Source: Silvibacterium acidisoli (GTDB lineage: Bacteria; Acidobacteriota; Terriglobia; Terriglobales; Acidobacteriaceae). From it: a stretch of DNA of 64,000 bases. How positions within the stretch are numbered: the first letter of the stretch is position 1; each line of letters starts with the position of its first letter. A program made the position numbers and the translations under genes. Location of the stretch: assembly GCA_022870745.1 (NCBI GenBank), contig CP085323.1, positions 1,736,001-1,800,000 of the forward strand. The letters are read 5' to 3'. Below are positions 28,508 through 60,984 of this stretch, piece after piece. Under the pieces are notes generated by a model. The model searched no databases, was not told the origin of the DNA, and saw only the letters and a list, made by a program, of their open reading frames with translations.

Positions 28508-28527
28508 CCTCGTCAGAGTAAGAACTT

Positions 28528-28984: not shown

Positions 28985-29647
28985 ATGTCTCATCTTCCGA
29001 CAATTCGGGCCAGTTGGTTTGCTGTGCAGACTCGTTACCGCTATGAACAGCGCGTTGCCGCTGATCTTGCGGCAAAGGGTGTCGAGCACTATCTTCCCCT
29101 GCTGCATGAAGTCCATCAGTGGAAGGATCGCAGCCGCGCCGTAGATCTCCCGGCCTTTGGCGGTTATCTGTTTGTGCGTCTTGTGCCTTCGGTCGAGAAT
29201 CGCGTGCGGGTGCTGGAAACCGCCGGCGTTGTGCGGGTGCTGGGAACCAATGGTTCGCCGGAGCCGGTGGCGGAATCGGAAATTGCCTCCCTGCGGCTCT
29301 CCCTGAACAGTGGACGCCCCTGCAGCCGTCATCCTTATCTTGCCGTCGGTGCACCGGTGCGCATCGCACGTGGGCCGCTGGCAGGCCTTGAAGGGCAGTT
29401 GGTTGGCCACGCCAACTCGCTCCGTATTGTGGTCTCGGTCGCATCCATCGGACAGGCCGTTTCGGTCGAGTTATCGAACAGCGATGTCCTGCCGCTCGAT
29501 GCCGTTGAACTTACCTGCTGTGGCGACGTCAATGCCACACGGACCCATAACACCCGGTCGATCACCGGTTCCGCCGCAAAAGAGGACAGATATGTCCCGG
29601 CGGCGTTCCGGGAACCGCGCCAGGGAACACTGCAATCCCGATACTGA
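28985..29647 (+). CDS. NusG/UpxY-family processive antitermination factor
   Basis: This 220-residue protein starts with the NusG N-terminal fold (SWFAVQTRYRYEQRVA, then HYLPLLHEVHQWKDR and FGGYLFVRL). It continues with a KOW domain at about 115-170 (VGAPVRIARGPLAGLEG) and a tail of about 45 residues rich in Thr and Arg. NusG paralogs of this kind (RfaH, UpxY, LoaP, TaA) ride on RNA polymerase and let it read through very long polysaccharide or polyketide operons. Here it heads a train of about 21 kb containing both kinds of gene. ATG at 28985 is preferred; a GTG 17 codons upstream (28934) is possible but adds an Arg-rich extension outside the family fold. No JUMPstart/ops sequence was found. 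Confidence 0.85.
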   Translation: MSHLPTIRASWFAVQTRYRYEQRVAADLAAKGVEHYLPLLHEVHQWKDRSRAVDLPAFGGYLFVRLVPSVENRVRVLETAGVVRVLGTNGSPEPVAESEIASLRLSLNSGRPCSRHPYLAVGAPVRIARGPLAGLEGQLVGHANSLRIVVSVASIGQAVSVELSNSDVLPLDAVELTCCGDVNATRTHNTRSITGSAAKEDRYVPAAFREPRQGTLQSRY

Positions 29648-33615: not shown

Positions 33616-35841
33616 ATGTACATAACGCCACGACATCCCGAAACACAGCAACAGATTCCGTTGCCTCCACCTCCGCCGCGTTCGGCAGCGCCTGCCCCGT
33701 CGAGTCCCTTCAAGATCGATGTGCTGCGGAGTCTGAAGGTGCATGCGATGACAGCCAGCCTGGTGGCGATTGCGACATGCGGCCTGGGTCTGGCGCTCCT
33801 ACTGCGCCATCATGCCGTCTATACCGCCAGCAGCACCGTATATGTCTCCCCGAACTTCCCCAAGACGCTGACCGAGGACCGCGAACAGGAATTCCAGTAC
33901 GACTCCTATATTCAGCAGGAGATGCACTCGGTCACGCGTTATGACGTCATCTCGGAAGCTCTCAAGAAGCTGCCGTCCGACGCATGGAAGAGACCGAATG
34001 AAAGCATGCAGGCAGCCATTGGACGTCTGCAGGGTGCGGTCGATGTCTCCCGCATCAGCACCACATACGAAGCCTCGATCTCTCTGACCGATACCAAGCC
34101 GGCCAATATCGCCGAAATCGTCAATGCCATCACCAACACCTATCTTGAAAAGGTGAAGGATGAAGAGTTCTACGGGCGCGACGAACGCCTGCAGACTCTT
34201 CGCCAGGAACGGGATCGTGTTCGCACCGACCTCGACGCGCGCCTGAAGGAACAGGCAGGTATTGCGGGCAAGCTGGGCATGGCCATCGTAGGCAGCACCG
34301 GCACGAATCCGTATGATAGCGATCTCGACAAGATGCGCGGCGACCTGAACACGGCTCATACCGCGCGCATCCAGGCTGAGGCACAGCTTTCGTCGCTGAA
34401 CAGCGGCGACCCGAACGCTCCGAATTCCGCACTGAATGCAGCCGCGGACGAGATTGCCGCGCTCGATCCCGGCCTTACTTCGCTGAAGTCGGCGCTCGGC
34501 CAGAAGCGCAGTGCGCTTCTGGGTACTCTGGCCGGCCTCACTCCGAACAACCCGCTGCGCAAGCAGACGGAAGACGAGCTTGCACAGACCGACAACGCCA
34601 TCGCGACGATGCAGGCCAACCTGCGCCGCCGTGCCGCGCAGCGCCTTGAAGAGAAGCTGCATTCCGAGGTCAATCGTGCGGCCGCGGTCGAAGCGCAGCT
34701 GAACCACGACATTCAGAAGAAAACCACGCAGGCCACCACCGCAGCCCCGGAATTTCAGCGCTCGGATGAGCTGAAGAACGATATCCAGAACCTGCAGACC
34801 CGTTACAACACGATCGATGAGCGCATCAGCAATCTCGAGCTCGAAAGCAGCTCACCGGGATCGGTGCACATGGTGCAGCCGGCCCGCACTCCAATCGAGC
34901 CCGAGCCGAGCAAGATGCGCAAGCTCTTCCCGGCGATCTTCCCGCTTGCCCTGATTATGGGCGTGCTCGCAGCGGTTGCCTTCGACCTGCTCGATCCGCA
35001 CCTCTATACCAGCAGCGACGTCGAAACCGTCATGGGTTTTGCTCCCATCGGCGTCCTGCTCGACGACCGCGAGGTTACGCAGCTGGTTTATGACGAGTGC
35101 TCATTGCGTCTGGCCGCGGGCATCGACCATGCCGCTCACTCCGCGGGAGTACGCACCTTTGTGATCACCGGCGTTACAGCCGGAGCAGGCACCACGACCA
35201 TCATCGAGCACCTCGGCAGCACGCTGGCGAAGCTCGGCCGCAAGACGCTGACCATCGATGCATCGGGCGCGACGCATCCCGTTGCCTATACCACGGTGAA
35301 CGCGAATGAATCGGGCCGGCGCACGGACGCCCCTGCCCAGAGCAGCGTTCTCCCGGTGACAGGCACCGAACTGCAGACCACCACGGTTGTTTCGCAGCCT
35401 CTGCAGTCGAAGATTCCGCCGCTCACGACCAGCTTCATGGCCAAGGCCTTCCAGGAGCTGACGAACGAATATGACATCGTGCTGATCGACGCGGCCCCAT
35501 TGCTGATCTCCGCGGAGACGGAATACCTTGCCCGTTTCGCCGACGTGACCGTTCTCGTGGGTGAATCCGGCAAAACCAAGAAGTCCGATCTCAAGCGCAG
35601 CGCGAAGCTACTGGAGCGCCTGAATGTCGGGGGCGTCGCAGTCATTATCAACAAGGTTGGGCTGCTGCGCGCCGAGAAGGACCTCAAGCAGGATCTGATC
35701 GAATTCGAAGCTCGCATGAACCGCACCAATCTGCGGTGGCAGCCGCGGGCGCGTCCTGAGACAGAGCCGTTCGTTCCCTTCGTCACCGTCAAGGAAGAAA
35801 TAGTGGACGCAGAAACGGTATCTTCCTCCAAGGTCAGCTAG
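33616..35841 (+). CDS. Wzc-like chain-length regulator with degenerate BY-kinase domain
   Basis: This 741-residue protein has a Pro-rich cytoplasmic start, membrane helix 1 (about 44-66), a long periplasmic coiled-coil region (about 100-420, Wzz/GNVR type), helix 2 (about 437-460) and a cytoplasmic BY-kinase-like domain (about 500-690). The Walker A motif reads GVTAGAGTTT at about 517-526: the ATP-binding Lys is Thr. Walker A' (TIDASG) and Walker B (IVLIDAAP) are recognisable. The C-terminal tail lacks the Tyr cluster phosphorylated in active Wzc. It probably still organises the export channel and controls chain length with the Wza-like protein upstream, but is unlikely to autophosphorylate in the classical way. 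Confidence 0.85.
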   Translation: MYITPRHPETQQQIPLPPPPPRSAAPAPSSPFKIDVLRSLKVHAMTASLVAIATCGLGLALLLRHHAVYTASSTVYVSPNFPKTLTEDREQEFQYDSYIQQEMHSVTRYDVISEALKKLPSDAWKRPNESMQAAIGRLQGAVDVSRISTTYEASISLTDTKPANIAEIVNAITNTYLEKVKDEEFYGRDERLQTLRQERDRVRTDLDARLKEQAGIAGKLGMAIVGSTGTNPYDSDLDKMRGDLNTAHTARIQAEAQLSSLNSGDPNAPNSALNAAADEIAALDPGLTSLKSALGQKRSALLGTLAGLTPNNPLRKQTEDELAQTDNAIATMQANLRRRAAQRLEEKLHSEVNRAAAVEAQLNHDIQKKTTQATTAAPEFQRSDELKNDIQNLQTRYNTIDERISNLELESSSPGSVHMVQPARTPIEPEPSKMRKLFPAIFPLALIMGVLAAVAFDLLDPHLYTSSDVETVMGFAPIGVLLDDREVTQLVYDECSLRLAAGIDHAAHSAGVRTFVITGVTAGAGTTTIIEHLGSTLAKLGRKTLTIDASGATHPVAYTTVNANESGRRTDAPAQSSVLPVTGTELQTTTVVSQPLQSKIPPLTTSFMAKAFQELTNEYDIVLIDAAPLLISAETEYLARFADVTVLVGESGKTKKSDLKRSAKLLERLNVGGVAVIINKVGLLRAEKDLKQDLIEFEARMNRTNLRWQPRARPETEPFVPFVTVKEEIVDAETVSSSKVS

Positions 35842-35869: not shown

Positions 35870-38800
35870 ATGGCAAAGCCCGATGCCAACACGAATGGGG
35901 AGAGAACTGCCTCTCCCTCAGCCGCTCCTGACCTGACCCCGGCGATCTCTGCGCTATGGCGCGAAATTCTCGGTCTGCCCCGTGTCGGCCTCGACGATAA
36001 CTTTTTCGAGAGCGGCGGCACATCGCTGTTGGCAACGCTTCTTGTCTCACGCATCAACCAGCTGCTCGCCGGGAAGGGTCTGGTCGCGCTTCCCATCGCT
36101 TCGTTCTTCGAGCATCCCACGCTGCGCGCTTTAACCGCTGTAATCAAGGGCGAAGCTGCCGAGATACCGGTCTCAACTCCAGCGCGCGAAAATACAAATC
36201 CAGCTTCCTCTGCCATTGCCATCATCGGCATGACCGGACGCTTTCCCAGCGCGGACAGTGTGGAAGAACTCTGGAAAAATCTCTCTGAAGGCGTTGAGTC
36301 TGTCACGTTCTTCGATCGTCATGAGCTCGAACCTTATGAACAACTTTTAGCTGATAAATCGGAACGTTACGTTGCAGCGCGTCCGCTGCTGAACCACGCC
36401 GACAAGTTCGACGCAGGCTTCTTCGGAATCTATCCGAAGGAAGCCGCGACCATGGACCCGCAGCATCGCGTCTTCCTCGAATGCGCCTGGGAAGTGCTGG
36501 AGCGCGCGGGCTACGACCCGGCTCACACAAAAGACTCCGTCGGCGTCTTCGCCGGATGCAGCATGAACACCTACTTCATGCGCAATCTCGCCACCGGCCG
36601 CGAGTTCCTTGAAGAATTTACCGGCGGATACCAGGTCGGCAATTACGTCGCCATGCTTGGCAACGACAAGGACTTTCTGCCTACGCGCGTCAGCTACAAG
36701 CTGAACCTGCGCGGACCAAGCATGAGCGTGCAGACCGCCTGCTCGACCTCGCTGGTCGCCGTAGCGCAGGCTGCGCAGAGCCTGCTGACCTACGGCTGCG
36801 ACATGGCGCTCGCCGGTGCCGTTTCGATCACCTTCCCGCAGCATCGCGGCTACGTTCCGCAGGAAGGCGGACTCGCCTCACTCGACGGCCATTGCCGTCC
36901 CTTCGATCACCAGGCCAGCGGAACCGTCTTCGGGCACGGCTCGGCCGTGCTGCTACTGAAGCGCCTCGACGATGCATTGGCCGACGGAGACCAGGTGCTG
37001 GCCGTCATCAAGGGCTTTGCGTTGAACAACGATGGCTCGGTCAAGGTCGGTTACACCGCGCCGAGCGTCGAAGGCCAGGCGCAGGTGATTGCCCGCGCGC
37101 AGAAGATGGCCGGCGTTTCGGCCGATTCCATCACTTATCTCGAAGCCCATGGAACAGGCACACCGCTCGGCGATCCGATTGAAGTTGCAGCGTTGAAGAA
37201 AGCCTTTCGTGTGACCACCTCTGAGACGGCCTTCTGCTCACTCGGTACCGCCAAGGCCAACGTTGGACACCTCGACGTCGCCGCAGGAGCAACCGGACTC
37301 ATCAAGACCGTGCTGCAGATGCAGCATCGCCAGATCCCTGGCCTGCTGCACTTCGAGCAGCCGAATCCGCATCTTGGCATCGAAGGCAGCCCATTTAAGA
37401 TCGACCGCACGCTGCGTCCCTGGGAAGCCAACGGCACGCCGCTGCGCGCCGGCGTCTCTGCCTTCGGCGTCGGCGGGACCAACGCGCACATCGTGGTCGA
37501 AGAAGCACCCGGTCGCCGCGCATCCGATGCCGGACGCGATCAGCACTTGCTCGTCTGGTCGGCCAAGACACCCGGCTCGCTGGAGTCGCTGACCGCATCG
37601 CTCGTTCAACATTTCCACACGGATTCCACAGGCATTGCGGATGCTGCCTACACGCTTCAGACTGGGCGCAGCAGTCATGCATTGCGCCGCTCGGTGGCCG
37701 TTTCTTCTACTGAAGAAGCCGCCGCGTTACTCGCCGGCTCTGCGGCAAAAGAGATCGCCAGCAACGACAAGCCTTTTGAAAATCCCGGAGTGATCTTCTG
37801 CTTTCCAGGACAGGGAGTGCAGACGATCGGCATGGGCCGCCGCCTCTACGAAACCGAAGCCGTCTTCCGCGACGCCCTAGATCGCTGCTCAAAGATTTTG
37901 ACGCCCCTGCTCGGAGCGGACCTGCTCGATGTGCTCTATCCTGCCGAGGCTACGGAAGCATCGCAGACGTTGCTGAATCAGACGCTGTACGCGCAGCCAG
38001 CGATCTTCAGCTTTGAATATGCTCTCGCGCAGCTATGGCTTTCGTGGGGTATCCAGCCCGAAGCCATGATCGGCCACAGCGTGGGCGAATACGTTGCCGC
38101 CTGCATCGCCGGTGTCTTCTCGCTCGAAGATGCACTCAGGATGATCGCAGCCCGCTGCCGTTTGATGCAGGCGCTGCCCGCTGGTTCCATGCTCGCCGTG
38201 CGGCGCGACGAAGCCACCGTCGCCAGTCTCCTGCCCGCGACGCTCGACATCGCCGCGGTCAACAGTCCACAGCTTTGCGTCGTCTCCGGCCCGACGAATG
38301 AGATAGACGCCTTTATCGCCAAGCTCGATGCGGAGAAGATTGTCTCGCGCAAGCTGGCTACCTCCCATGCCTTCCACAGCCGCATGGTCGATCCGGCGCT
38401 GGCTCCTTTCGCCGAAACGGTCGCCACCGTCAGCTTCTCCGAGCCGAAGATTCCGTATGTTTCGACGCTCACGGGCAAGTGGGCGACGCTGGCCGAGATC
38501 TCGCAGCCTGCTTACTGGACGCGCCAGCTTCGTCACGCCGTTCGCTTCGCCGATGCCATTACTGAAATTCTGAAGACCCCGGAGCGCATCCTGCTCGAAG
38601 TCGGGCCGGCCGAGACGCTGGTTCAGCTCATGCGCCAGATCGGCGGCACTGCTGTGCTCTCCAGCCTCGGCGGTCTTAAGAGCCGCGACAGTGACGAAAG
38701 AGCTCCAGAGGATCGCGCGATCCTGAATTCACTCGGCAAGCTCTGGACTTTGGGCACCGAGATCGACTGGCAAAGCTTTCATTCAGGCTACGTCCGCAAC

Positions 38801-41800
38801 CGCGTATTGCTTCCCACTTATCCTTTCGAGCGCCAACGACACTGGATCGATGCGCCAGCGTATCAACCTTCTGCCCAGGCTCTGCCGGGTACCCCTTCTG
38901 CTGCCACCACTGCCGTACCTGACACTGCTTCTACTGCCGAGGATTTCGTTATGGCTACCGTTTCTTCTTCCGACCTTATGCTCTCCGCACTCAAGGACAT
39001 GATCGCCGATCTCTCCGGCACCGACCTGACCGGCGCCGATGCCGATGCCTCGTTCCTCGAACTCGGATTCGACTCACTCTTCCTGACCCAGCTCACGCAG
39101 GCGATCCAGGGCAAGTACAAGCTCAAGCTCACCTTCCGCCAGATCATGGAGAGCTATCCCACGCTCGACGGCCTCGCGAAGCATCTCGACGAAGCGGTCA
39201 CGCCCGAGCTGAAGCCCGCTGCTGCTGCGCCAGTTGCTACCCCTGCGCCGACGGCCGTTGCTGTTGCTGCCGCACCCGTCGCTTACGCAGCGCCTGTGGT
39301 GCAGCCGGCTCTCACTCCCGTTGCCGCGCCCGTGATCCATGCGCCTGCCGGGTCGCTCGAAGCCCTCCTCGCCAGCCAGGTACAGGCCTTGAGCGGACTC
39401 TTCCAGCAGCAGATGGAGTTCCTGCGCGGACAAAGCTTCAGCGCGCCGGTCGCAGCAGCAGCAGTGCAGGCAGCGCCTGTTGTCGCGCCAATGGTTGCGC
39501 CCGCACCGGCTCCAGTCGCCGCTCAGGCTCCCGTTGCGACCGCTCCTGCAAAGGAAGAAGCTCCGAAGAAGCCCGTCTTCACGCCCTTCAAGCCGCTTTC
39601 GCGTGGTGAGACCGGCGGGCTGAACCCGACGCAGGAGAAGTACCTCAAGGACTTCGTCGCCAGCTACAACGCGCGCACTCCCGGCTCGAAGCAGTTCACG
39701 CAGGATAACCGCGCCGTCTTTGCCGATGGCCGCGTCGTCTCCGGCTTCAATGCTCAGTACAAGGAAATGGTCTACCCGCTGGTGGTCGAACGCGCCAAGG
39801 GTGCTTACCTGTGGGACAAGGACGGTAACCGCTACATCGACATCCTCAACGGCTACGGAGCGATTCTCTACGGCCACTCGCCCGACTTCATCGTCGAGGC
39901 CGTGCATGAGCAGCTCGACATCGGCTTCCCCATCGGACCGCAAACGCCGCTCGTAGCCGAATGCTCGCGCCTGGTCAGCGAACTGACCGGCATGGAGCGC
40001 GTGACCTTCTGCAATACCGGTTCTGAAGCCGTGATGGGCGCGATGCGCCTTGCCCGCACCGTAACCGGACGCAACCTCATCGTCATGTTCAGCGGCGACT
40101 ACCACGGCAGCTTCGACGAAGTACTGGTGAAGTCGGTCGGCAACCAGCGCTCCATGCCGGTCGCACCAGGCATCCCGCGCGAGAGCGTTGCGAACACGCT
40201 GGTTCTTGATTACGGCTCCGATGAAGCACTCGAGATCATCCGCAACCGCGCCGACGAAATCGCCGCCGTGCTGGTAGAACCTGTCCAGAGCCGCCACCCG
40301 GAACTGCGCCCCGCCGAGTTCCTGAAGGAAGTGCGCCGCATCACCGCTGACAGCGGTTCTGCACTGATCTTCGACGAAGTGGTCACCGGCTTCCGTACTC
40401 ACTCGGGAGGTATGCAGGCTGTTTATGGCATCCGCGCCGATCTCGCCACCTACGGAAAGGTCGTCGCTGGAGGCCTCCCGGTCGGCATCCTCGCAGGCAG
40501 CCCGGCTTTCATGGACGCGCTCGACGGCGGCATGTGGCAATACGGCGACAACTCCTTCCCGCAGGTGGGCGTCACCTTCTACGCAGGAACCTTCATGCGC
40601 CATCCGCTGGCCATGGCCGCAGTTAAAGCCAGCCTCGAACACATCAAGGAGTCCGGCCCATCGCTGCAGACCGATCTCGCGAAGAAGACCTCTGCGCTCG
40701 TCGCCGATCTGAACGCGATGTTCCGCGAATTCAACTACCAGTCGTCGATCGAGACCTTCGCCTCGTGGTTCTTCTTCTCGCCTGCACAGGAGCCGCAGCT
40801 GGCGCGTCTGCTGCACTATCACCTGCGCGAGCAGGGCATCCACATCCAGGAAGGCTTCCCTTGCTTCCTGACGACCGCACACACCGACGAAGATTTGCAG
40901 TTCGTCCGCAAGGCCTTCCGCACCAGCCTTGAGAAGATGCAGGCAGGGCAGGCCATCGGCAAGGCCGAAGCTGCTTCTATTCCTGCTGCGGAGCCTGCCG
41001 TTGCGAAGACTATCGCCGCTCCGGTTGTCGAGACCGTTCCGATCGAGCACGACATCGCCATCACCGAACCGCAGCGCGAGATCCTGATCGGCACGCAGCT
41101 CGGCGATGAAGCCAACTGCGCCTTCAACGAAGGAACATCGCTGCGCCTGAAGGGCGATCTCAATGAAGCTGCCTTCATCGCATCACTCGAGAAGCTGGTC
41201 ACGCGTCACGAGTCGCTGCGCTCCTCGGTGGCCGAGGACGGCGACACCATCCACATCGACGCGGAAGTTCGTCTGCCGCTCGAGCACGACGACCTGACGG
41301 CGCTAGATGCGGCTGCCCGCGATGCCCGCCTCAAAGAGATCATCGCCCGCGAAGCCTCGACTCCATTCGATCTCTACAACGGTCCGCTCTTCCGCATGCG
41401 GTTGGTGCGCCTTGCAAGCGACGAGCACGTTCTCGTGACCACGGCACACCACATCATCTTCGACGGATGGTCGACCAACGTCCTCTTCTCCGAACTGAGC
41501 GCGCTCTACAACGCTGCCATTGCAGGCTCGAACGCTGCCCTGCCCGCGCCGCTGACCTTTACTTCGTACGCTGCCGCGCAGGCCGAGCACCAGAAGACCG
41601 AGGAAAACTCTGAAGTCGAGACGTACTGGCTCAACGAGTTCAAGACACTGCCTTCACCTCTCGAGCTGCCCACGGACCGGCCTCGTCCGGCGATGCGCGG
41701 CAATGACGGAGCTACCCGCCGCTTCATCTTCCCGGCCGAGTTCCTGAAGTCTGTCCGCAAGGCGGGCGCGAAGCAGGGGTCTACCTTGTTCGCTACGCTT

Positions 41801-44284
41801 CTTGCCGGTTATGCACAGCTTATCCACCGGCTCTCGCAGCAGCAGGATGTCGTCATCGGCATCCCCACCGCCGGGCAGAACCTGCTCGAAAACGGCGGTT
41901 CGCTGGTTGGCCACTGTGTGAACTTCCTGCCCATCCGCAGCACCTTCGATCCGGCACAGCCTATCGGCCAGTTCGTAAAACAGTCGCGCAAGAAGCTGCT
42001 CGACGCGCAGGATCACCAGAACTACACCTACGGCACGCTGCTGCGGAAGCTGAAGATCCAGCGTGAAAGCTCGCGGCTGCCGCTCGTCGAGGTCCAGTTC
42101 AACGTGGAGCAGGTCGGTGCCGGCCTCAAGTATGAAGGCCTCGCTGCCGACCTGAGCGCCAACCCGAAGACCCACGTCAACATGGACCTCTTCTTCAACT
42201 TCGTCGATCGCGGCGAAGAGCTGTGGCTCGACGTGGACTACAACACCGGCCTCTTCGACGAGGCCACCATCGCGCGCTGGTGCGGACACCTGCAGGCGAT
42301 CCTCGAAGCCTTCGTCGCCAACGCCGAGCAGCCCATCGGCCAGGTTTCGATTCTCAACCCGGCACAAACGAAGCAGATCCTGGTCGATTGGAACAGGACT
42401 GCAACTGACTTCCCACGCAACAGCTCGATCCACCAGGTATTTGAAGAGCAGGTCGCGCGCACACCCAACACCACCGCCGTCACCTTCAACGGCCAGTCGC
42501 TCACCTATGCGCAGCTGAACGAGAAGGCCAATCAGTTGGCCCGCTTTCTGCGGGGCGCCGGTATTCAGACGGGCGACCGCGTAGCCCTCTGCCTCGACCG
42601 CTCGCTCGAAGTCTCGGTCAGCCTCCTGGCGATTCTCAAGGTTGGCGCTTCCTATGTCCCCGTCGATGCCAGCTACCCGGAGCAGCGTATCCGGTTCCTG
42701 GTCGAGAATTCACAGGCGAAGGCACTGCTGACCCAGGCATCACTGGTCGCGAAGCTGCCGGGGCTCAACACCAATGTCATCGATCTCGACACCGATGGGC
42801 CGTCAATCGCAGTCGAGTCGGGCTCGAATTTCCCCTCCGCCCAGCTCACCGGCGACGCCGAAGCCTACGTCATGTACACCTCCGGATCGACCGGAAACCC
42901 TAAAGGCGTGCGAGTACCGCATCGCGCCGTACTGCGACTGGTGAAGAACAACAGCTTCGCAAGCTTTGCACCGAGCGAAGTCTTCCTGCAGCTGGCTCCG
43001 CTCTCGTTCGACGCCTCGACCTTCGAGATCTGGGGAGCCCTGCTGAATGGCGGACGCCTGATCCTCGCGCCCGCTGGACGCGTCACGCCGGAAGACATCG
43101 GCACGCTCATCAAGATGCACAACGTCACCACGCTCTGGCTGACGGCTGCGCTCTTCCACCTGGTTGCGACCACGCACCTTGAGATCCTTCGCCCGCTGCG
43201 CCAGCTTCTGGCCGGTGGCGACGTCCTCTCGGTGACGCATGTCCGCCGCATTCTCGAGGAGCTGCCGCATCTGCGCCTCATCAACGGCTACGGACCGACG
43301 GAAAACACCACCTTCACCTGCTGCCACACCATCACGCCGGCCAGCCTGACCATCGGCTCCGTGCCGATCGGCCGCCCCATCTCGAACACCCGCATCTATC
43401 TCGTCGATGCTTCCATGCAGCCGGTTCCCGTCGGCGTTGCCGGTGAGCTGCTCGCGGCCGGAGATGGCGTTGCCCTCGGCTATCTGAACGCACCCGAACT
43501 CACGTCGGAAAAGTTCATCGAGCACTCCTTCGATGGCCGCTCCGAGCGCCTGTATCGCACCGGCGACCTCGCCCGCTACCGTCCGGATGGCACGGTCGAG
43601 TTCCTGGGACGCGCTGATACCCAGGTCAAGGTTCGCGGCTACCGCATCGAACTGGCCGAGATTGAATATGCCCTCGAACGTTCGCCGCTGGTGCAGTCCG
43701 CCGTGGCCAGCGTCCGCACCGATTGGGTGACCGCCCACGATGCCCCGGGCGACAAGCGCCTCGCAGCCTACATCATTCCGCAGAAGGCTGGCGACAACGC
43801 CGCGCTGATCACCGAGCTTCGCACCTGGCTCAAGGGGCAGCTGCCGGATTACATGCAGCCGGCTGCGATCGTAATCGTCGACAGCTTCCCGCGCACCGTA
43901 AACGGCAAGGTCGACCGCCGCGCCCTGCCCGCCCCGCAGCCGGAGCGGATGCTACACGAACGTGCTATTGTCTACCCTCGCACCCCGCAGGAAGATGTAC
44001 TTGCGTCGATCTGGTCCAAGGTTTTGAACCTGAAAGAGGTTAGCGTGGAGGACAGCATCTTCGAGCTCGGGGGAGACTCGCTGATGATCTTCCGTATTAA
44101 CACTTTAGCCAACCAGGCCGGGATGAAAATCACGGCTCGACACATCTTTGAATTCAAGACCATTGCAGCAATCTGCGCACAGGTTCATGAGGGCCGTGAC
44201 GACGAGATGGCTGAAAACTCCTCAGGAACGATCCGGCCAGTGGCCCGATCGCTGCATCGTAAACCCCGAACCGTTCTGCAGTAA
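35870..44284 (+). CDS. Hybrid PKS/NRPS: carrier-KS-AT-ACP-aminotransferase-C-A(Val?)-PCP
   Basis: This 2804-residue megasynthase reads, in order: a carrier domain (about 20-95, FFESGGTSLLA); ketosynthase (about 115-540; Cys291 in TACSTS, EAHGTGT, NVGHLD); acyltransferase (about 640-925; Ser737 in GHSVGEY, HAFHS typical of malonyl-CoA); ACP (about 1027-1105, GFDSL); a Pro/Ala linker; a PLP class-III aminotransferase (about 1235-1695; GSEA, Lys1530); condensation domain (about 1720-2170, HHIIFDG); adenylation domain (about 2175-2690, all core motifs present); and PCP (about 2700-2780, LGGDSL). The plan is to extend a starter with malonate, convert the beta-keto group to a beta-amine and couple it to an amino acid, as in the first part of mycosubtilin/iturin synthases. 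There is no loading ligase and no TE; the next gene supplies the release module. ATG 35870 or GTG 35855 may start it. Confidence 0.9.
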   Translation: MAKPDANTNGERTASPSAAPDLTPAISALWREILGLPRVGLDDNFFESGGTSLLATLLVSRINQLLAGKGLVALPIASFFEHPTLRALTAVIKGEAAEIPVSTPARENTNPASSAIAIIGMTGRFPSADSVEELWKNLSEGVESVTFFDRHELEPYEQLLADKSERYVAARPLLNHADKFDAGFFGIYPKEAATMDPQHRVFLECAWEVLERAGYDPAHTKDSVGVFAGCSMNTYFMRNLATGREFLEEFTGGYQVGNYVAMLGNDKDFLPTRVSYKLNLRGPSMSVQTACSTSLVAVAQAAQSLLTYGCDMALAGAVSITFPQHRGYVPQEGGLASLDGHCRPFDHQASGTVFGHGSAVLLLKRLDDALADGDQVLAVIKGFALNNDGSVKVGYTAPSVEGQAQVIARAQKMAGVSADSITYLEAHGTGTPLGDPIEVAALKKAFRVTTSETAFCSLGTAKANVGHLDVAAGATGLIKTVLQMQHRQIPGLLHFEQPNPHLGIEGSPFKIDRTLRPWEANGTPLRAGVSAFGVGGTNAHIVVEEAPGRRASDAGRDQHLLVWSAKTPGSLESLTASLVQHFHTDSTGIADAAYTLQTGRSSHALRRSVAVSSTEEAAALLAGSAAKEIASNDKPFENPGVIFCFPGQGVQTIGMGRRLYETEAVFRDALDRCSKILTPLLGADLLDVLYPAEATEASQTLLNQTLYAQPAIFSFEYALAQLWLSWGIQPEAMIGHSVGEYVAACIAGVFSLEDALRMIAARCRLMQALPAGSMLAVRRDEATVASLLPATLDIAAVNSPQLCVVSGPTNEIDAFIAKLDAEKIVSRKLATSHAFHSRMVDPALAPFAETVATVSFSEPKIPYVSTLTGKWATLAEISQPAYWTRQLRHAVRFADAITEILKTPERILLEVGPAETLVQLMRQIGGTAVLSSLGGLKSRDSDERAPEDRAILNSLGKLWTLGTEIDWQSFHSGYVRNRVLLPTYPFERQRHWIDAPAYQPSAQALPGTPSAATTAVPDTASTAEDFVMATVSSSDLMLSALKDMIADLSGTDLTGADADASFLELGFDSLFLTQLTQAIQGKYKLKLTFRQIMESYPTLDGLAKHLDEAVTPELKPAAAAPVATPAPTAVAVAAAPVAYAAPVVQPALTPVAAPVIHAPAGSLEALLASQVQALSGLFQQQMEFLRGQSFSAPVAAAAVQAAPVVAPMVAPAPAPVAAQAPVATAPAKEEAPKKPVFTPFKPLSRGETGGLNPTQEKYLKDFVASYNARTPGSKQFTQDNRAVFADGRVVSGFNAQYKEMVYPLVVERAKGAYLWDKDGNRYIDILNGYGAILYGHSPDFIVEAVHEQLDIGFPIGPQTPLVAECSRLVSELTGMERVTFCNTGSEAVMGAMRLARTVTGRNLIVMFSGDYHGSFDEVLVKSVGNQRSMPVAPGIPRESVANTLVLDYGSDEALEIIRNRADEIAAVLVEPVQSRHPELRPAEFLKEVRRITADSGSALIFDEVVTGFRTHSGGMQAVYGIRADLATYGKVVAGGLPVGILAGSPAFMDALDGGMWQYGDNSFPQVGVTFYAGTFMRHPLAMAAVKASLEHIKESGPSLQTDLAKKTSALVADLNAMFREFNYQSSIETFASWFFFSPAQEPQLARLLHYHLREQGIHIQEGFPCFLTTAHTDEDLQFVRKAFRTSLEKMQAGQAIGKAEAASIPAAEPAVAKTIAAPVVETVPIEHDIAITEPQREILIGTQLGDEANCAFNEGTSLRLKGDLNEAAFIASLEKLVTRHESLRSSVAEDGDTIHIDAEVRLPLEHDDLTALDAAARDARLKEIIAREASTPFDLYNGPLFRMRLVRLASDEHVLVTTAHHIIFDGWSTNVLFSELSALYNAAIAGSNAALPAPLTFTSYAAAQAEHQKTEENSEVETYWLNEFKTLPSPLELPTDRPRPAMRGNDGATRRFIFPAEFLKSVRKAGAKQGSTLFATLLAGYAQLIHRLSQQQDVVIGIPTAGQNLLENGGSLVGHCVNFLPIRSTFDPAQPIGQFVKQSRKKLLDAQDHQNYTYGTLLRKLKIQRESSRLPLVEVQFNVEQVGAGLKYEGLAADLSANPKTHVNMDLFFNFVDRGEELWLDVDYNTGLFDEATIARWCGHLQAILEAFVANAEQPIGQVSILNPAQTKQILVDWNRTATDFPRNSSIHQVFEEQVARTPNTTAVTFNGQSLTYAQLNEKANQLARFLRGAGIQTGDRVALCLDRSLEVSVSLLAILKVGASYVPVDASYPEQRIRFLVENSQAKALLTQASLVAKLPGLNTNVIDLDTDGPSIAVESGSNFPSAQLTGDAEAYVMYTSGSTGNPKGVRVPHRAVLRLVKNNSFASFAPSEVFLQLAPLSFDASTFEIWGALLNGGRLILAPAGRVTPEDIGTLIKMHNVTTLWLTAALFHLVATTHLEILRPLRQLLAGGDVLSVTHVRRILEELPHLRLINGYGPTENTTFTCCHTITPASLTIGSVPIGRPISNTRIYLVDASMQPVPVGVAGELLAAGDGVALGYLNAPELTSEKFIEHSFDGRSERLYRTGDLARYRPDGTVEFLGRADTQVKVRGYRIELAEIEYALERSPLVQSAVASVRTDWVTAHDAPGDKRLAAYIIPQKAGDNAALITELRTWLKGQLPDYMQPAAIVIVDSFPRTVNGKVDRRALPAPQPERMLHERAIVYPRTPQEDVLASIWSKVLNLKEVSVEDSIFELGGDSLMIFRINTLANQAGMKITARHIFEFKTIAAICAQVHEGRDDEMAENSSGTIRPVARSLHRKPRTVLQ

Positions 44285-44332
44285 TTTGACCGGGGAATAC
44301 GTGCTCTTACGTTGTCCTTGGTTGAGTCTGCG

Positions 44333-47300
44333 ATGAGCCGAACTGATACCCGTGAGATGGAATTTGCCGAAACCGTGAAACCGCAGGACCTTCAAACCGC
44401 CAACTCGGGCGGAGGTGAAGGATCGCAGCAAGACGCGGTTTACGTCTTTCCCGCCAGCCTGGAACAAAGCCGCTACTGGATTCTCGACCAGCTGGCCGGT
44501 GCTTCCACGGCTTCGAATATGGCAGTGGCCTTCCGCATGGAAGGCCCAGTCCGTGATGATCTTGTCGAGATATGCGCGCGCGAGCTGGTCGTGCGTCACG
44601 AGGCCCTGCGCACCAACTTCCAGATGGTGGATGGCGTGCTTTCGCAGGTCATAAGCGAAGAACCCCGCTTCGGCTTTTCCATCTCCGACCTCCGGGTTCT
44701 TCCTGAAGCCAGCCGCGCCAACCGCGCTGAAGAACTGATCCATGAACACAGCCGCGTCCGCTTCGATCTGGCGAATGGCGCGCTCTTCCACGTTCACCTG
44801 ATTCACGTCACCGATACCGACCACTTCCTGGCCCTCACGATGCACCACATCGTCTGCGACGGCTGGTCGAACGGCATCCTGATTCGCGATTTCGCCCTTT
44901 ATTACGAAGCAGCGCTCACGCTCCGGAACGCCGAAATGCCCGAGCTGCCCTTCCAGTTCGCCGACTTTACCGTCTGGCAGCAGGAGTGGCTCGAGAGCGA
45001 AGCGGCGGACAACGCCATGGCCTACTGGAAGCAGCACATCCAGAGGGACATGCCGGCCATCGACCTGCCCGCGGATTTCCCGCGCGCTGCGGAAAAGAGC
45101 GCGCCCGGCGACATCGTCGGACGCCTGCTTCCCACCGAGCTGACCGCGCGCCTCAAGAACTACTGCCGCAAGCACGACGCAACTATGCACCAGGTGCTGC
45201 TCGCGGCATTCGAAGCCATCATCTCGCGCTACGCCGGGCAGGACGAGTTCCTGCTGGGCTCGACCATCGCCAACCGCACACAGCCGGGCATGGAAAATGT
45301 CGTCGGCCGCTTCGCGCACCCGCAGGTGGTGCTGGCCGATGTGCAGGGCGACCCGACCTACTCGGAACTCGTCAAGCGCGTTGCCAACTGGAGCGCGAAC
45401 TCTTACGCCCACCAGGATCTGCCCTTTTCGCGCCTGACCGAAGCTTTCCAGCTCGACCAGGAGCATGCGACTTCGCAGTTCCTGCAGGTCTATTTCGTTT
45501 ACCAGAAAGCCTTCATGCAGCCGCAGCAGGCTGGTCCGCTGCGCATCGTTCCCCGTCCTTCGGTGAGCGGTGGAGTCAACTTCGACATGCTGGTCAGCAT
45601 CGTCGAGCGCGGAGAAGGCCCACGTCTGCAGGTTGAGTACAACACGAAGCTCTTCCGCCAGGAGCGCGTAAGCCGCCTGATCGAGCTGTACATCCGCGTG
45701 CTCGAAGCAGTGATGGACGACGATTCCCTGCGCGTCTCGGCATTGCCGCTCCTTTCGCATGACGAGCAGGCGAAGCTGGCGGCCTCCGCAGTCGCAAATT
45801 CCGTTCCGGAAACCGCAAGGCTTTCCCTCACGGCAGCTTTCGATCGCATCGCGGAGAAGAACGGTAATACCGCTGCTCTCATCTTCGGCGAACATCGCAC
45901 CAGCTGGAGCGAGCTCCAGCAGAAGAGCCTCGGCCTGGCTCGCGCCATGCAGAATGCCGGTGTCAGAGCGGGCGCAACTGTCGCGGTCCGGCTTGAGCAG
46001 TCCGCTGAAGCAGCCGCTTCGGTGCTCGCGACTTTGCGGCTGGGCGCGGTGGTACTGCCCGTTCCGGCAAGTGTCTCCTCTGTCGAGTGGCAGACCATCC
46101 AGGCAGAATTCAAACCGGTTCTGTCGCTCTCTTCGGAAACCTTCGCCGAGAAGTTTGCTGCAGTCACATCCTACAAACAGCTTGCGGAGATCGACTCTCC
46201 ATCTGCGACTCTGCCTGAGATCGATGCGGCTGCACCGGCATGGATCGCTCCCGGCGCTGACGGCCCCATTTATTCCTCGCACGCTGCAAGCTTCATCAGC
46301 CTGCAGGCTGCGGCGCAGGCCATGGATCTTCAGCAGGGTTCGGTCATTCTGGCGTCGGCGGCATCTTCCGCAACAGACGCATGGACCGATCTGATGCTGC
46401 CCCTGGTGAATGGCGCAGCTGTCATCTCTGCGGAAGGCATTAACCCTACCGCGTTGCAGGCAGTTCTTGACCGCGAACAGGTCTCCTTCGTTTTCTCTAC
46501 CGCGCCCGAAATCGTCGCCACGCTTCGTGGAGGATGGACCGGCGATCGCCGTCTCCATGCCATCTGCCGCGGCTCGCATCTGAGCCCGGCCACGGCAGCA
46601 GAGCTGCTCCAGTCTCCCGGCCGTTACTCGTCGCTGATATCGTCAGCCTCGACCGCCGGACCGCTTGCATTTGCGGCGCTCTCTGCTAACGGCCTGGTCA
46701 TCGCCCCTCTGCCGGGCGAGAGCTTTGAGCTGGCAGACGATGCCGGACGCCCGGTCGCATTCTCGGTTCCCGGACACCTTGTGGTTCGCCGCGGAACGGC
46801 GGAATCAAGGCCGTCTCTTCGCGTCCGCTTTACGCCTGACGCAGGCTTCGAGCTGCTCGACGCCTCCGACCGCTTCGTTAACCACAATGGCTACCGCATT
46901 CGCCTTGGCGAACTCGAAGAACTGCTGACGCAGGAGCCTTCGGTCGCAACCGCCGCGGCTGCCCTTGTGCCTGACGCGCACGGCAAAGCATCGCTGGTCG
47001 CTTACGTTACCGGTCACAGCGGCACGCTGCCCTCGTCGGCAACAGTGTCTGCATGGTTGAAGGCTCATGCCGCTGCGCACCTTGCGGCAGCAGAGATTCT
47101 TCCCGTTCCAGCCATTCCTCATCGCCTCGATGGTTCGCCCGACATCTCCGCCCTGCCCCAGCCGGGCAGCTCTGTGCTGGCTGCCGAGGCCGATGCCGGC
47201 TATGTACCGCCCCGCGATGAACTCGAAAAGAACCTGGTCTCCATCTGGGAGAGCGTGCTGGGAGTGCCGGGCATCGGCATCCGCACCAACTTCTTCTCGC

Positions 47301-48292
47301 TCGGCGGCTACTCGCTGATGATCGTGCGCCTCTTCGCCACGATCAACCGCACGCTCTCACTCTCGCTGCCGATTACGACCATCTTCAACGCACCAACCGT
47401 GGAACAGCTCGCCGACATCATCCGCGGGCGCACGCTCTATTCGCCGCTGGTGCCGGTGCAACCACGGGGCGACAAGCCTCCGTTCTTCCTGGTGCACTCG
47501 TACCTGCTCTATGGCGGTCTTCCCTCTGTACTCGGCGAAGACTACCCGTTCTACGGCCTGCGCGAAATTGAAGACCGCGACAAATCCATGACCATGGAGC
47601 AGCGCGCGGCCTCCTATGCGAAGGAGATCCGCTCGGTGCAGCCGCACGGCCCGTACTATCTCGGAGGCTGGTGCGCAGCCGGTCCACTGGCTGTCGAAAC
47701 AGCACGCGCGCTGACAGATGCCGGAGAAGAAGTCCGCACCGTAATGCTCTTCGACTCCTGGCGTCCTGGTTATTCCAAGGAGCTCGAAAGCGAGCAGAAG
47801 AACCGTCCCGACATGGCGCTGAAAGCCGTACTGTCACGCAAGTACCGCTTCCACCGCATGAAGATGCGTCCGCTCTCCGCAGCGCACAAGGTGAAGTACA
47901 TCGGCAGCGCCGCGCTGCACAAGTTCAACGGCGTCAAGGGCCGCATGTATATGCGGAACTGGGCGCTGGCGCAGCGGCTCTTCAAGCTCTTCGGCCTGCC
48001 GTTGCCGCATTTCATGCACAACGTCAGCCTGGAAACATTCGAAGCCGTTCGCACCTATAACCCGAAGCAGTTTCCAGGACGCATCACCCTGATGCGCGCC
48101 ACGCAGGCCATCTACATTCCAGGCGCGGAAGAAGGATGCGGCTGGGGCAAGGTGGCGCGCGACGGAGTGGAAGTCCTGTGGGCACCCGGCGACCATGAAT
48201 CCATGTTCATGGAGCCGAACCTGGCATCTGTAGGCAGCTCACTGCGCAACACGCTGGAAAAGGCCCGGTCCGCCGACACGGCAGGCGTATAG
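44333..48292 (+). CDS. NRPS release protein: C-(degenerate A)-PCP-TE with Cys nucleophile
   Basis: This 1319-residue protein has a condensation domain (about 35-480; HHIVCDG near 170), an adenylation-like region (about 500-950), a PCP (about 955-1035, LGGYSL) and a type-I thioesterase (about 1050-1319). The adenylation region has lost its working parts: no TSGSTG loop, no YGPTE, no YRTGD and no catalytic Lys in the A10 position (DGSPD). Only a GYRI/GELEE remnant of A8 remains. The thioesterase has GWCAAG instead of GxSxG: Cys1114, Asp1141 exactly 27 residues later as in surfactin TE, and His1288 in GDHES. It should receive the acyl-aminoacyl chain from the upstream protein and release it. ATG 44333 is chosen; a TTG at 44312 is the alternative. 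Confidence 0.88.
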   Translation: MSRTDTREMEFAETVKPQDLQTANSGGGEGSQQDAVYVFPASLEQSRYWILDQLAGASTASNMAVAFRMEGPVRDDLVEICARELVVRHEALRTNFQMVDGVLSQVISEEPRFGFSISDLRVLPEASRANRAEELIHEHSRVRFDLANGALFHVHLIHVTDTDHFLALTMHHIVCDGWSNGILIRDFALYYEAALTLRNAEMPELPFQFADFTVWQQEWLESEAADNAMAYWKQHIQRDMPAIDLPADFPRAAEKSAPGDIVGRLLPTELTARLKNYCRKHDATMHQVLLAAFEAIISRYAGQDEFLLGSTIANRTQPGMENVVGRFAHPQVVLADVQGDPTYSELVKRVANWSANSYAHQDLPFSRLTEAFQLDQEHATSQFLQVYFVYQKAFMQPQQAGPLRIVPRPSVSGGVNFDMLVSIVERGEGPRLQVEYNTKLFRQERVSRLIELYIRVLEAVMDDDSLRVSALPLLSHDEQAKLAASAVANSVPETARLSLTAAFDRIAEKNGNTAALIFGEHRTSWSELQQKSLGLARAMQNAGVRAGATVAVRLEQSAEAAASVLATLRLGAVVLPVPASVSSVEWQTIQAEFKPVLSLSSETFAEKFAAVTSYKQLAEIDSPSATLPEIDAAAPAWIAPGADGPIYSSHAASFISLQAAAQAMDLQQGSVILASAASSATDAWTDLMLPLVNGAAVISAEGINPTALQAVLDREQVSFVFSTAPEIVATLRGGWTGDRRLHAICRGSHLSPATAAELLQSPGRYSSLISSASTAGPLAFAALSANGLVIAPLPGESFELADDAGRPVAFSVPGHLVVRRGTAESRPSLRVRFTPDAGFELLDASDRFVNHNGYRIRLGELEELLTQEPSVATAAAALVPDAHGKASLVAYVTGHSGTLPSSATVSAWLKAHAAAHLAAAEILPVPAIPHRLDGSPDISALPQPGSSVLAAEADAGYVPPRDELEKNLVSIWESVLGVPGIGIRTNFFSLGGYSLMIVRLFATINRTLSLSLPITTIFNAPTVEQLADIIRGRTLYSPLVPVQPRGDKPPFFLVHSYLLYGGLPSVLGEDYPFYGLREIEDRDKSMTMEQRAASYAKEIRSVQPHGPYYLGGWCAAGPLAVETARALTDAGEEVRTVMLFDSWRPGYSKELESEQKNRPDMALKAVLSRKYRFHRMKMRPLSAAHKVKYIGSAALHKFNGVKGRMYMRNWALAQRLFKLFGLPLPHFMHNVSLETFEAVRTYNPKQFPGRITLMRATQAIYIPGAEEGCGWGKVARDGVEVLWAPGDHESMFMEPNLASVGSSLRNTLEKARSADTAGV

Positions 48293-48301
48293 CCTGTTTG
48301 C

Positions 48302-49063
48302 ATGTCTCCTGAAAAGACGATGCCGCAACTCGCGGCCGGCAAAGTACACATCTGGAAGCTGGAACCTGTCACAGGGTTCCAGCCTGCCGGCTGGTTCGGC
48401 CTGCTCGATGAAGAAGAACAGGCGCGAGCATCCCGCTTCCGCTTTCCTCATCTGACCCAAAGCTTCGTTGCCGATCACGCACGCCTGCGCATGCTGCTCG
48501 GTTATTACACGCAAACAGCTCCGCAGGCTATCCGGTTCGCGAAGAATTTCTACGGCAAGCCTTCGTTTGCATTTCCTGAGACAAGACTCCACTTCAACCT
48601 GTCCCACACCGAAGGCTTAACTCTGCTCTCGGTGTGCCTCGACCATGAACTCGGAGTCGACATCGAAGCCGTGCGTCCAATGGATGACTGGCAGGAGATT
48701 GCGGCTACTCATTTCTCCGCCGTCGAGAACGCAGAGCTACGCAGCTTCGCCCCGTCCGACCGCAATCATGCCTTCTTCCGCTGCTGGACGCGCAAGGAGG
48801 CCTTTCTGAAGGCCAGCGGAGAGGGTCTTTCCAAGCCGCTGGATGCTTTCAGCGTAAGTATCCAGCGCACGGACGATCCGCAGTTTCTTACCTGCGACTG
48901 GGACCCCGAAGAAACGAAGCGATGGACGCTGAAGTCGTTGTCTTTCGGTGAGAGCTTCATTGGAGCGCTCGCCCTGCAACACCGGAATGGGGCAGACGCG
49001 TGGCAATTAGTTGTATTGGACAACAGCGACTTCCGCGCTATCGTTTCTACGGAAAGAGTGTGA
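48302..49063 (+). CDS. Sfp-type 4'-phosphopantetheinyl transferase
   Basis: This 253-residue, two-lobed PPTase converts apo carrier domains to holo form with coenzyme A. The family motifs are YGKPSF and FNLSHTEG in the first lobe, GVDIEAV (Mg/CoA-binding Asp and Glu, about residue 115) and FFRCWTRKEAFLKASGEGL (about 155-175, with the catalytic Glu and Lys). It begins 10 bases after the NRPS stop codon and is the obvious activator of the four carrier domains encoded directly upstream. Its stop overlaps or abuts the start of the next gene. Dedicated PPTases inside EPS operons are not usual; its presence supports a functional assembly line. Confidence 0.92.
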   Translation: MSPEKTMPQLAAGKVHIWKLEPVTGFQPAGWFGLLDEEEQARASRFRFPHLTQSFVADHARLRMLLGYYTQTAPQAIRFAKNFYGKPSFAFPETRLHFNLSHTEGLTLLSVCLDHELGVDIEAVRPMDDWQEIAATHFSAVENAELRSFAPSDRNHAFFRCWTRKEAFLKASGEGLSKPLDAFSVSIQRTDDPQFLTCDWDPEETKRWTLKSLSFGESFIGALALQHRNGADAWQLVVLDNSDFRAIVSTERV

Positions 49064-49065: not shown

Positions 49066-50280
49066 GTGACGACATCGACCTCCCCTGTACGCCGTTTTGT
49101 TGCGAGCCGCCGATGGCTGGTGCTCATTGCTGTGCTTGGTATCGTGCTGCGCCTCGGATTGATCGCCAAGACAACCCACAACGAACGCTTCTACGACGAA
49201 GTGGATTACGACCACATCGCCGTCTCCCTCGTGCATGGAGGAGGCTTCTCCGATCACGTGATCGACGTCGAGACCGTGGATCACCCGACGGCCTATCGCG
49301 CCCCCGCTCAACCGATCCTGATGGCGGTGGTCTACAGGGTCATCGGGCATCGCCCGATTGCGATTGAAGTGATCGAGGCATTCCTGCTCGCGGCGCTGCC
49401 CTTCATTTGCGCGCAGATCGGCCTGCGCATAGGCCTGAGTGCGTTCGCTGCGAACATCGGCGCAACCATCGCCGCCTTTCACCCGGTTATCTCCTATGCG
49501 GCAACCACTCTGTATCCCAGCGTAGTCACCATCGTCGCGCTTACCTGCGGCATATGGCTCTGCTGGGAGACGATCGCTCGCAACAAGGCAAGCTGGGCCG
49601 TTGGAGCAGGTGCTTCATTCGGCCTCGCCGCGGCAGCAACAACCACTTTCGCGCCCGTCGCATTTCTCGCCGCGCTGGTCATAGCTTTCCGGCGCAGATT
49701 CAAGCTGGCGATCATCGTCGCCGTAATCGGTCTCGCACCTTCCATCACGTGGATGGTGCGCAACAAGATCGTGATGCACAATTTCACACTGGCCACCAAC
49801 GGCGGCTACAACCTCGAGCTCGGCGCCAACGACGACGCCACGCCACGTTCCGGCAACTGGATCACGCTCTATCCCAGGTGGGAGCTGGGCGAAGTAAAGG
49901 CCGACGCATTGCTTCGCCAGCAGGCCGAAGTATGGATTCACACCCACCCCGTTCGCTACGTGGAGCTAAGCGTTCTTCGCGCTCTCGCGGTCTTCGACTC
50001 TACGGGACGGCCGAAAACGCAGGGCGTAAACTCCGGCCGTGCCGCCGAGATCGTTGGCTACATCCTGCTGCCGGTCGTGCTGGCGGGCTTCGTGGGGCTG
50101 TTCCTCTACTGGCGCAACCCGATCGCGTGGGTCACCACCGCGGCACTAGGACTGGTCATCCTCAGCTCGGCGCTCACCCTCGCCAAACCGCGCTTCCGCC
50201 TGCCCATCGATCCCGCGCTCTGCGTCTTCGCCGTGGGGACAGTCAGCACCGTGGCAAAGCGGATTCGAGCAACCAACTAA
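49066..50280 (+). CDS. GT39/ArnT-like polytopic membrane protein
   Basis: This protein of about 404 residues has around ten hydrophobic helices. The first periplasmic loop carries ERFYDEVDYDH, an acidic cluster like the DE/DD motif of GT-C transferases, followed by HPTAYRAPAQP. Such enzymes move sugars from polyprenyl-phosphate carriers to proteins, lipids or glycans outside the cytoplasm. It may decorate the polymer, or possibly the lipopeptide-like product, since it is translationally linked to the PPTase gene. GTG at 49066 sits 7 bases after GGAAAGAG; GTG at 49060 would overlap the PPTase stop by four bases and is the alternative. It is the last gene that I place in the sigma-54 operon. 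Confidence 0.7.
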   Translation: MTTSTSPVRRFVASRRWLVLIAVLGIVLRLGLIAKTTHNERFYDEVDYDHIAVSLVHGGGFSDHVIDVETVDHPTAYRAPAQPILMAVVYRVIGHRPIAIEVIEAFLLAALPFICAQIGLRIGLSAFAANIGATIAAFHPVISYAATTLYPSVVTIVALTCGIWLCWETIARNKASWAVGAGASFGLAAAATTTFAPVAFLAALVIAFRRRFKLAIIVAVIGLAPSITWMVRNKIVMHNFTLATNGGYNLELGANDDATPRSGNWITLYPRWELGEVKADALLRQQAEVWIHTHPVRYVELSVLRALAVFDSTGRPKTQGVNSGRAAEIVGYILLPVVLAGFVGLFLYWRNPIAWVTTAALGLVILSSALTLAKPRFRLPIDPALCVFAVGTVSTVAKRIRATN

Positions 50281-57544: not shown

Positions 57545-57545
57545 G

Positions 57546-57576: not shown

Positions 57577-57581
57577 AGCCT

Positions 57582-60962: not shown

Positions 60963-60984
60963 GCGATTCGACTTCCTTTCCGGC

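Follow-up and report, generated by a model that had tools for sequence, protein, structure and literature searches.

In the genome of Silvibacterium acidisoli, a single contig of 5.36 Mb, we found a polyketide synthase/nonribosomal peptide synthetase (PKS/NRPS) line lying within an operon for exopolysaccharide (EPS) export, at positions 35,870 to 49,063 of the 64,000-nucleotide stretch analysed here (the window). The reading we favour, to which we assign a probability of roughly 0.5, is that this would be a working, vertically inherited PKS/NRPS of the Acidobacteriaceae EPS locus that makes a small peptide for the polysaccharide coat. PKS genes in capsule clusters are known, but a modular PKS/NRPS with an aminotransferase (AMT), kept in an EPS operon across a family, was not met in the open-licence literature searched; if the product is part of the matrix, such clusters would belong to cell-surface biology and not to antibiotic discovery.

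Domains of the line and its operon

Pfam matches in the first gene (35870-44284) comprised three carriers, a ketosynthase (KS), an acyltransferase (AT) with its KS-AT linker, a class-III aminotransferase, a condensation (C) domain and an adenylation (A) domain. This gene is followed by a second synthetase gene (NRPS2), which ends in a thioesterase (TE), and by a phosphopantetheinyl transferase (PPTase) gene; carriers are denoted ACP (acyl carrier protein) or PCP (peptidyl carrier protein):

35870..44284, + strand: PKS/NRPS protein, PCP0-KS-AT-ACP-AMT-C1-A1-PCP1 (Pfam; aligned close orthologs retain the catalytic residues and the A1 code)
35945..36142, + strand: N-terminal carrier PCP0, which has no cognate A or acyl-ligase domain (PF00550)
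36212..37357, + strand: ketosynthase (PF00109, PF02801)
37796..38638, + strand: acyltransferase with HAFH motif (PF00698, alignment)
39770..40753, + strand: class-III (HemL-like) aminotransferase domain (PF00202)
41045..42382, + strand: condensation domain C1 (PF00668)
42440..43909, + strand: adenylation domain A1, code DAFWLGGTF (Pfam, alignment, code reading)
44312..48292, + strand: NRPS2, C2-A*-PCP2-TE (Pfam, alignment, motif patterns)
45839..47122, + strand: degenerate adenylation domain A* (core motif patterns absent, P-loop and A10 Lys missing)
47489..48271 (bounds approximate), + strand: thioesterase, GWCAAG with Cys nucleophile (PF00975 partial match, alignment)
48302..49063, + strand: Sfp-type phosphopantetheinyl transferase (ACPS-family Pfam match)

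The original prediction, made from the letters alone, had read this same order of domains and the dedicated PPTase on one strand, and both the Pfam matches and the catalytic residues bear it out. From alignments, the latter are C-H-H in the KS, GHSVGE and HAFH in the AT, GFDSL in the ACP, TYGK in the AMT, HHIIFDG in C1, HHIVCDG in C2, the carrier Ser, and GWCAAG in the TE. We take the HAFH motif to indicate malonyl specificity and the A1 code to specify Val; this code is kept in the close orthologs aligned, save for a Leu/Ile position and neighbours outside the code. The Pfam scan of the line found no acyl ligase (the carrier stands directly before the KS), no methyltransferase domain and no reducing DH/ER/KR domains. 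The two synthetase proteins hold one intact A domain, and the full-length C-domain matches of the genome are confined to them (two strong matches to the Condensation family, both in this line, and two partial ones of 32-38 bits). Likewise, the AT family matched this line and a single further frame, of 319 aa and thus FabD-sized, and the ACPS family matched the PPTase at 48302..49063 and one 130-aa frame of AcpS size, the sole Sfp-type PPTase of the genome being the gene that ends the line.

Domain A* gave a fragmentary Pfam match of 74 bits, against 295 for A1. The 12 other NRPS2 sequences in the alignment all lack the P-loop and the A10 Lys, and the G169 protein is without most of the domain, so that A* looks dead in all aligned orthologs. 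Identity in nine orthologs was 34-49% for A*, 64-76% for C2 and 75-89% for PCP2, and in the more distant G099 it was 28, 52 and 40%, respectively; A* is thus the faster-evolving part of the protein, and since their identity is far higher than that of A*, C2 and PCP2 appear constrained. The best Protein Data Bank sequence match of the TE, 4zxh, likewise has GWC. We considered whether the Cys TE might point to the formation of a beta-lactone or beta-lactam (PMC11298585, as far as extracts of that source go) and set this aside, as the TE lacks the Gln-Cys-Asn motif and shares its GWC with 4zxh.

The line sits among the following genes:

28587..28871, + strand: HTH_3 regulator at the operon head (PF01381; homologue upstream of WecG in relatives)
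28985..29647, + strand: UpxY-family NusG paralogue, probable antiterminator of the operon (NF033644, 110.8 bits, cut-off 100)
29726..31039, + strand: WecG/TagA glycosyltransferase with STAS domain (PF03808, PF01740; TIGR00696 over cut-off)
31182..32375, + strand: GT2 glycosyltransferase (PF13641, PF00535)
32467..33501, + strand: Wza-type polysaccharide export protein (PF02563, SLBB domains)
33616..35841, + strand: Wzc-like co-polymerase (TIGR01007, 63.6 bits, below the cut-off of 108)
49066..50280, + strand: GT39-like membrane glycosyltransferase, a weak match (PMT_2, 20.1 bits, below the cut-off of 26.1)

Intergenic gaps are 114 nt (Wza-Wzc), 28 nt (Wzc-PKS), 27 nt (PKS-NRPS2), 9 nt (NRPS2-PPTase) and 2 nt (PPTase-glycosyltransferase), so the tight spacing claimed from the Wza/Wzc pair to the GT39-like flank holds. 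The GT39-like and Wzc-like proteins themselves score below their cut-offs. A homologue of the former lies 3' of the PPTase in one relative only on our tblastn synteny maps (L010/G159, which are one and the same locus). The best NCBIfam match of Wza, TIGR03027, is below its cut-off, and the Wzc-like protein is under all nine NCBIfam cut-offs listed. While a Poly_export protein and a co-polymerase side by side are what a Wza/Wzc-type export locus has, the Walker A motif here reads AGAGTTT and is without the Lys that the Walker A of BY-kinases usually carries; the G099 Wzc homologue also reads GTTT there.

Conservation and co-inheritance with EPS genes

We surveyed a sample of 200 genomes of the family, searching for the PKS via the AMT domain alone. 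Ten genomes, the window's own (G000) included, have an AMT domain at 69-100% identity, and the same ten have full-length NRPS2 relatives (42-100% identity); we call these window-type. Close named relatives fall in Paracidobacterium, Silvibacterium and acidobacterial metagenome-assembled genomes (MAGs), and those recorded as strains include Silvibacterium bohemicum S15 and Paracidobacterium acidisoli 4G-K13. EPS genes adjoin the window-type line in 9 of the 10 genomes, conserved co-occurrence with Wza/Wzc being the check that the original prediction had proposed; in the tenth (G142) the contig ends inside the PKS. The order HTH-WecG-GT2-Wza-Wzc-PKS-NRPS2 is kept in L006, L008-L012 and G066, with a Wzy-like gene inserted between WecG and GT2 in L006; L005 and L007 have the same order up to the PKS, where their contigs end, and G099 has it with no WecG match. 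A PPTase homologue is present in the stretches read of 8 of the 10 genomes, and none is in those of G102 and G197.

We built maximum-likelihood trees from a concatenation of four EPS proteins (18 taxa) and from PKS plus NRPS2 (14 taxa). Both contain (window,(L010,L011)), (L012,G197) and ((L006,L008),(L009,G066)); where they part is the deep branching of L005/L012/G197 (support 71 vs 97). These findings support the PKS/NRPS line as a long-conserved, co-inherited part of the EPS locus.

The AMT search found 16 further genomes with a second, more divergent type of AMT-PKS (49-61% AMT identity). To score both types, we used models for Wza, Wzc, WecG, the priming transferase and Wzx on all six frames, and as controls 11 NRPS loci from genomes without AMT-PKS, 2 of them on contigs <10 kb. 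In the stretches read, at least two EPS markers were found in 9/10 window-type genomes, in 7/16 second-type genomes (G034, G039, G140, G114, G186, G087 and G169) and at 1/11 control loci; G035 has three markers, and G142, G165 and G143 have one (Wzx). Since some of the scored loci had been used to build the BacTransf and Wzx models, we restricted the Fisher test to Wza or Wzc, which were present in the stretches read of 15 of 26 AMT-PKS genomes and at 0 of 11 control loci (one-sided p 0.0008), in 15/25 vs 0/9 without contigs <10 kb (p 0.002), and in 6/16 for the second type alone (p 0.03); these p values are indicative and overstate independence, as the 26 genomes are related, and the Wza/Wzc models also contain rows from the AMT set, both of which tell against us. 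Weak Wzc matches were counted for G114 (80 bits), G186 (50 bits) and G087 (82 bits), and G034 was excluded from the total, its Wza and Wzc lying beyond the two stretches scored. Because of the co-inheritance and the control comparison, a functional link of the line with EPS appears more likely than chance placement.

Further findings weigh against this reading. Seven of the 16 second-type genomes (G041, G150, G168, G047, G184, G153 and G016, the last a 6-kb contig) scored no EPS marker in the stretches read, and outside the family 0/16 loci have two. The genome G183 keeps HTH-WecG-GT2-Wza-Wzc without the PKS/NRPS line, with no NRPS2 match at 1e-100 and no AMT match at 1e-60, and G169 has GT2-Wza-Wzc with a divergent PKS on the other strand in a changed order. 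The EPS tree places the two within a clade that also holds L005, L012 and G197 (support 100); the line was therefore lost or replaced in them, and is dispensable to the EPS operon. Movement of the synthetase independent of EPS genes, which had been named as evidence against the link, is thus seen in part: in these two genomes and in the markerless divergent loci.

Several details of these loci are worth recording. Downstream of wzc, G183 has an alpha/beta hydrolase, a MenE-like ligase, a FabG-like reductase and a FadD6-like ligase (L102:16684-18000, L103:1-6521), and these genes take the post-wzc place as if the slot were exchangeable. The divergent line of G169 has a separate A-PCP loader and a C-PCP-TE protein. 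By eye, glycosyltransferases and a WecB-like gene can be read in G041, and in G165 (L187:3776-6614) a divergent PKS lies near genes reading as an exosortase and a WecB-like epimerase. In G034 (L108:13197-15107) a PPTase gene adjoins Wza, with the divergent PKS ~15-25 kb off on the same contig. In a member of the Parvularculaceae (L018:8231-22418) an AMT-PKS stands beside an FkbH-PCP loader, a hydr1_PEP-like hydrolase (below cut-off) and a MOP-type flippase.

Predicted product and alternative explanations

We propose with moderate confidence that the line would take an amino-acid starter, extend it once with malonyl, transaminate the product to a beta,gamma-diamino acyl unit and couple this to valine. 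The starter, likely an amino acid, would be held on PCP0; after the single malonyl extension the beta-keto group would be transaminated to give a beta-amino acyl unit (beta,gamma-diamino if the starter is an amino acid), which would then be joined to valine. The C2-PCP2-TE protein would finish the chain without a working A domain of its own and, at loci without the third NRPS described below, A1, the sole intact A domain seen there, may charge more than one carrier in trans. The peptide would be put out as part of the polysaccharide coat, either released with the polymer or placed on it. Of the beta-amino acyl/valine unit claimed originally, the intact AMT module and the Val reading of A1 stand; the iturin-type acyl chain fits poorly with a line without acyl ligase.

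The second-type synthases bear on both ends of this scheme. In a FastTree of 42 KS domains (L018 included, midpoint-rooted, without support values) the window KS falls inside the second-type group, and 12 of the 16 sister synthases are served by an A-PCP loader on a separate protein, in most cases with a Thr- or Val-like code (of 12 loader codes read, 7 are Thr-like, 4 Val-like and 1 is DMYWFGVVW). Their A1 domains (15 tried, G047 left out) are of DILQ type in 13 cases, presumably specifying Gly, with one Thr-like and one unreadable. A pattern search of their terminal proteins, read for 10 genomes, found A motifs in G140 and none in the other 9, and a terminal protein without its own adenylation is therefore common in the group. 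Because the line has no acyl ligase and its KS groups with mostly loader-fed synthases, we consider it somewhat more likely that the starter is an amino acid, and the product a diaminoacyl-valine unit, than that an iturin-like lipid is made.

Other observations count against the scheme. The KS tree carries no support values, G041 and G039 showed no A-PCP loader ahead of the PKS, and PCP0 scored 38-63 bits against loader carriers and up to 59 bits against control NRPS carriers. In the window-type stretches searched there is no A-PCP loader other than the third NRPS, and in those without it the loader search found no intact A domain besides A1; in G099 the PKS frame has no PCP0. That the homology of PCP0 points to an amino-acid starter was considered and rejected, as control NRPS carriers match as well. 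A further point against a matrix role is an MsbA-like ABC exporter 11-13 kb upstream of the window, which could export a free product. The original prediction had argued from the lack of any ABC, MFS or RND exporter for use at the membrane or on the polymer; Pfam indeed matched no such exporter in the window proteins scanned (the large proteins at 507-2111, 18932-20206 and 20185-22785 have no Pfam match at all), but this exporter and a third NRPS lie just outside. The upstream stretch (G000:C1:1722662-1736492) encodes the exporter, a Cupin_8 protein, a protein with an HxD...H motif, a priming sugar transferase, RmlD and the third NRPS, together with a flavin (FAD) protein that has a match to Lys/Orn oxygenase, and an ATP-grasp protein that extends into the window. 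The third NRPS (NRPS3; G000:C1:1730439-1733768, L126:8440-11769), 2.2 kb upstream of the window, is A-PCP-TE with an intact A domain (code DIMQIGCIY, identical in G159 and G102) and a Cys TE. As a general loader of PCP0 it was rejected, its full-length relatives (48-56%) occurring only in G159, G197 and G102 of the 200 genomes and at the MAG locus L013. The HxD...H protein (L126:3697-4605) has no Pfam match and invariant H157, D159 and H230 in 8 sequences; it is likely an Fe(II)/2-oxoglutarate oxygenase, and occurs near several AMT-PKS genes and at 0/11 control loci.

With these genes upstream, the product might instead be a free small peptide (a signal, metallophore or antibiotic) sent out by the MsbA-like exporter and sharing only regulation with EPS. 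This is a serious competitor that we nevertheless consider doubtful. The exporter, the Cupin_8 and HxD...H proteins, the oxygenase-like FAD protein and the ATP-grasp gene would suit such a pathway, parts of this set recur in G159 and G102 with exporter homologues included, and some divergent AMT-PKS versions lie away from EPS genes. The mutanofactins, in the portions of PMC11782227 available, are a biofilm-acting PKS/NRPS family with ABC transporter genes in the cluster. Yet the exporter was seen in 3 of 10 window-type genomes, where most stretches read end short of that region, while the linkage to wza-wzc holds in 9 of 10. Tentatively, and with less weight still, one may picture a narrower version of the coat reading, in which C2/TE and a membrane-tethered hydrolase would put a cationic beta,gamma-diaminoacyl-valine covalently on the EPS or a lipid carrier; were it true, a modular PKS/NRPS would be a dedicated polysaccharide-decorating machine.

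An iturin-type lipopeptide, in which a fatty acyl group on PCP0 would be extended and transaminated to a beta-amino fatty acid and joined to valine, seems rather unlikely. The KS-AT-ACP-AMT order is common to iturin-type synthetases, A1 reads as Val, the PCP0 sequence does not separate the two starter types, and other AMP-binding enzymes of the genome could feed PCP0; these genes, NRPS3 apart, are however >1 Mb away, and to this are added the missing acyl ligase and the grouping of the KS with synthases mostly fed by amino-acid loaders. Least probable, in our judgement, is that the line is a passenger: a cluster for a secondary metabolite that entered an EPS island in the distant past and has stayed through chance and vertical descent. 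The genome has 8 Poly_export genes, which would make EPS loci common landing sites, and the line was lost in G183 and G169, but the order is kept across loci whose PKS proteins are 63-73% identical, and the EPS context recurs in rearranged second-type loci.

Related systems and flanking genes

Iturin MycA/ItuA and microcystin McyE are AMT-containing hybrid synthetases. The iturin type has an N-terminal acyl ligase that activates a fatty acid and several further NRPS modules that yield a cyclic heptapeptide, and McyE-like synthetases have a C-methyltransferase domain. The present line shares with them a KS-AT-ACP-AMT module followed by NRPS domains, and differs in having no acyl ligase or C-methyltransferase, a short line, a degenerate second A domain and an EPS operon around it. 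The capsule PKSs WcbR and RkpA carry reducing DH/ER/KR domains. They are type I PKSs encoded among capsular polysaccharide biosynthesis and export genes of the Burkholderia wcb and Rhizobium rkp clusters, and a reducing make-up is given for SwfA, which is moderately similar to them (PMC3908369, in extracts). The likeness lies in a type I PKS within a polysaccharide cluster, whereas here there are an aminotransferase and NRPS modules, no reducing domains, and Wza/Wzc-type EPS genes. The muf cluster of Streptococcus mutans is likewise PKS/NRPS, with a product that acts in biofilm formation; as far as partial text of the source goes, it has ABC transporter genes of its own and no EPS operon context (PMC11782227).

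Clusters for EPS associated with exosortase A contain an acyl-CoA ligase and hydrolases. Points of likeness are the best match of Wza to TIGR03027 and the hydrolases, hydr1_PEP-like though below cut-off, of the G183 locus and next to the L018 PKS; here, in contrast, there is a full modular PKS/NRPS, and Pfam gave no exosortase for any of the window proteins scanned. In the open-licence literature searched, no title or abstract shown described an AMT PKS/NRPS in an EPS operon, and two papers on acidobacterial species report NRPS-like and PKS regions and EPS-like material, unlinked in the parts seen (PMC11354219, PMC12935467).

Of 17 relative groups searched, 6 (L006, L008-L011 and G066) have the UpxY-type NusG paralogue seen near the operon head, and L005, L012, G197, G183 and G169 gave none; such paralogues act on long capsule or polyketide operons, according to extracts of PMC7819879. 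Terminator-like sites in 28200-48000 are not above chance (16 vs 14.8 expected). Two further features flank the operon:

23599..25002, - strand: membrane-tethered PAF-AH-like alpha/beta hydrolase (PF03403, 79 bits)
56804..63792, mixed strands: priming sugar transferase (+) and, on the - strand, dTDP-rhamnose genes with another Poly_export gene; a sugar supply next to the operon

The hydrolase has four hydrophobic segments in about its first 100 residues and GHSIG at 301; homologues occur in 13/26 AMT-PKS genomes (stretches read) vs 0/11 control NRPS loci (p 0.003, with the same reserve as to independence). Genes running the opposite way upstream, including a sigma-54 activator and a hexapeptide transferase, are kept in relatives whose mapped stretch reaches them. 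Farther off, a 1433-aa protein with L-type lectin and chitobiase-C-like domains (2408-6709) has homologues beside the EPS loci of several relatives, and a Reg_prop/Y_Y_Y sensor fused to GGDEF (12637-15744) may provide a c-di-GMP link to the EPS locus.

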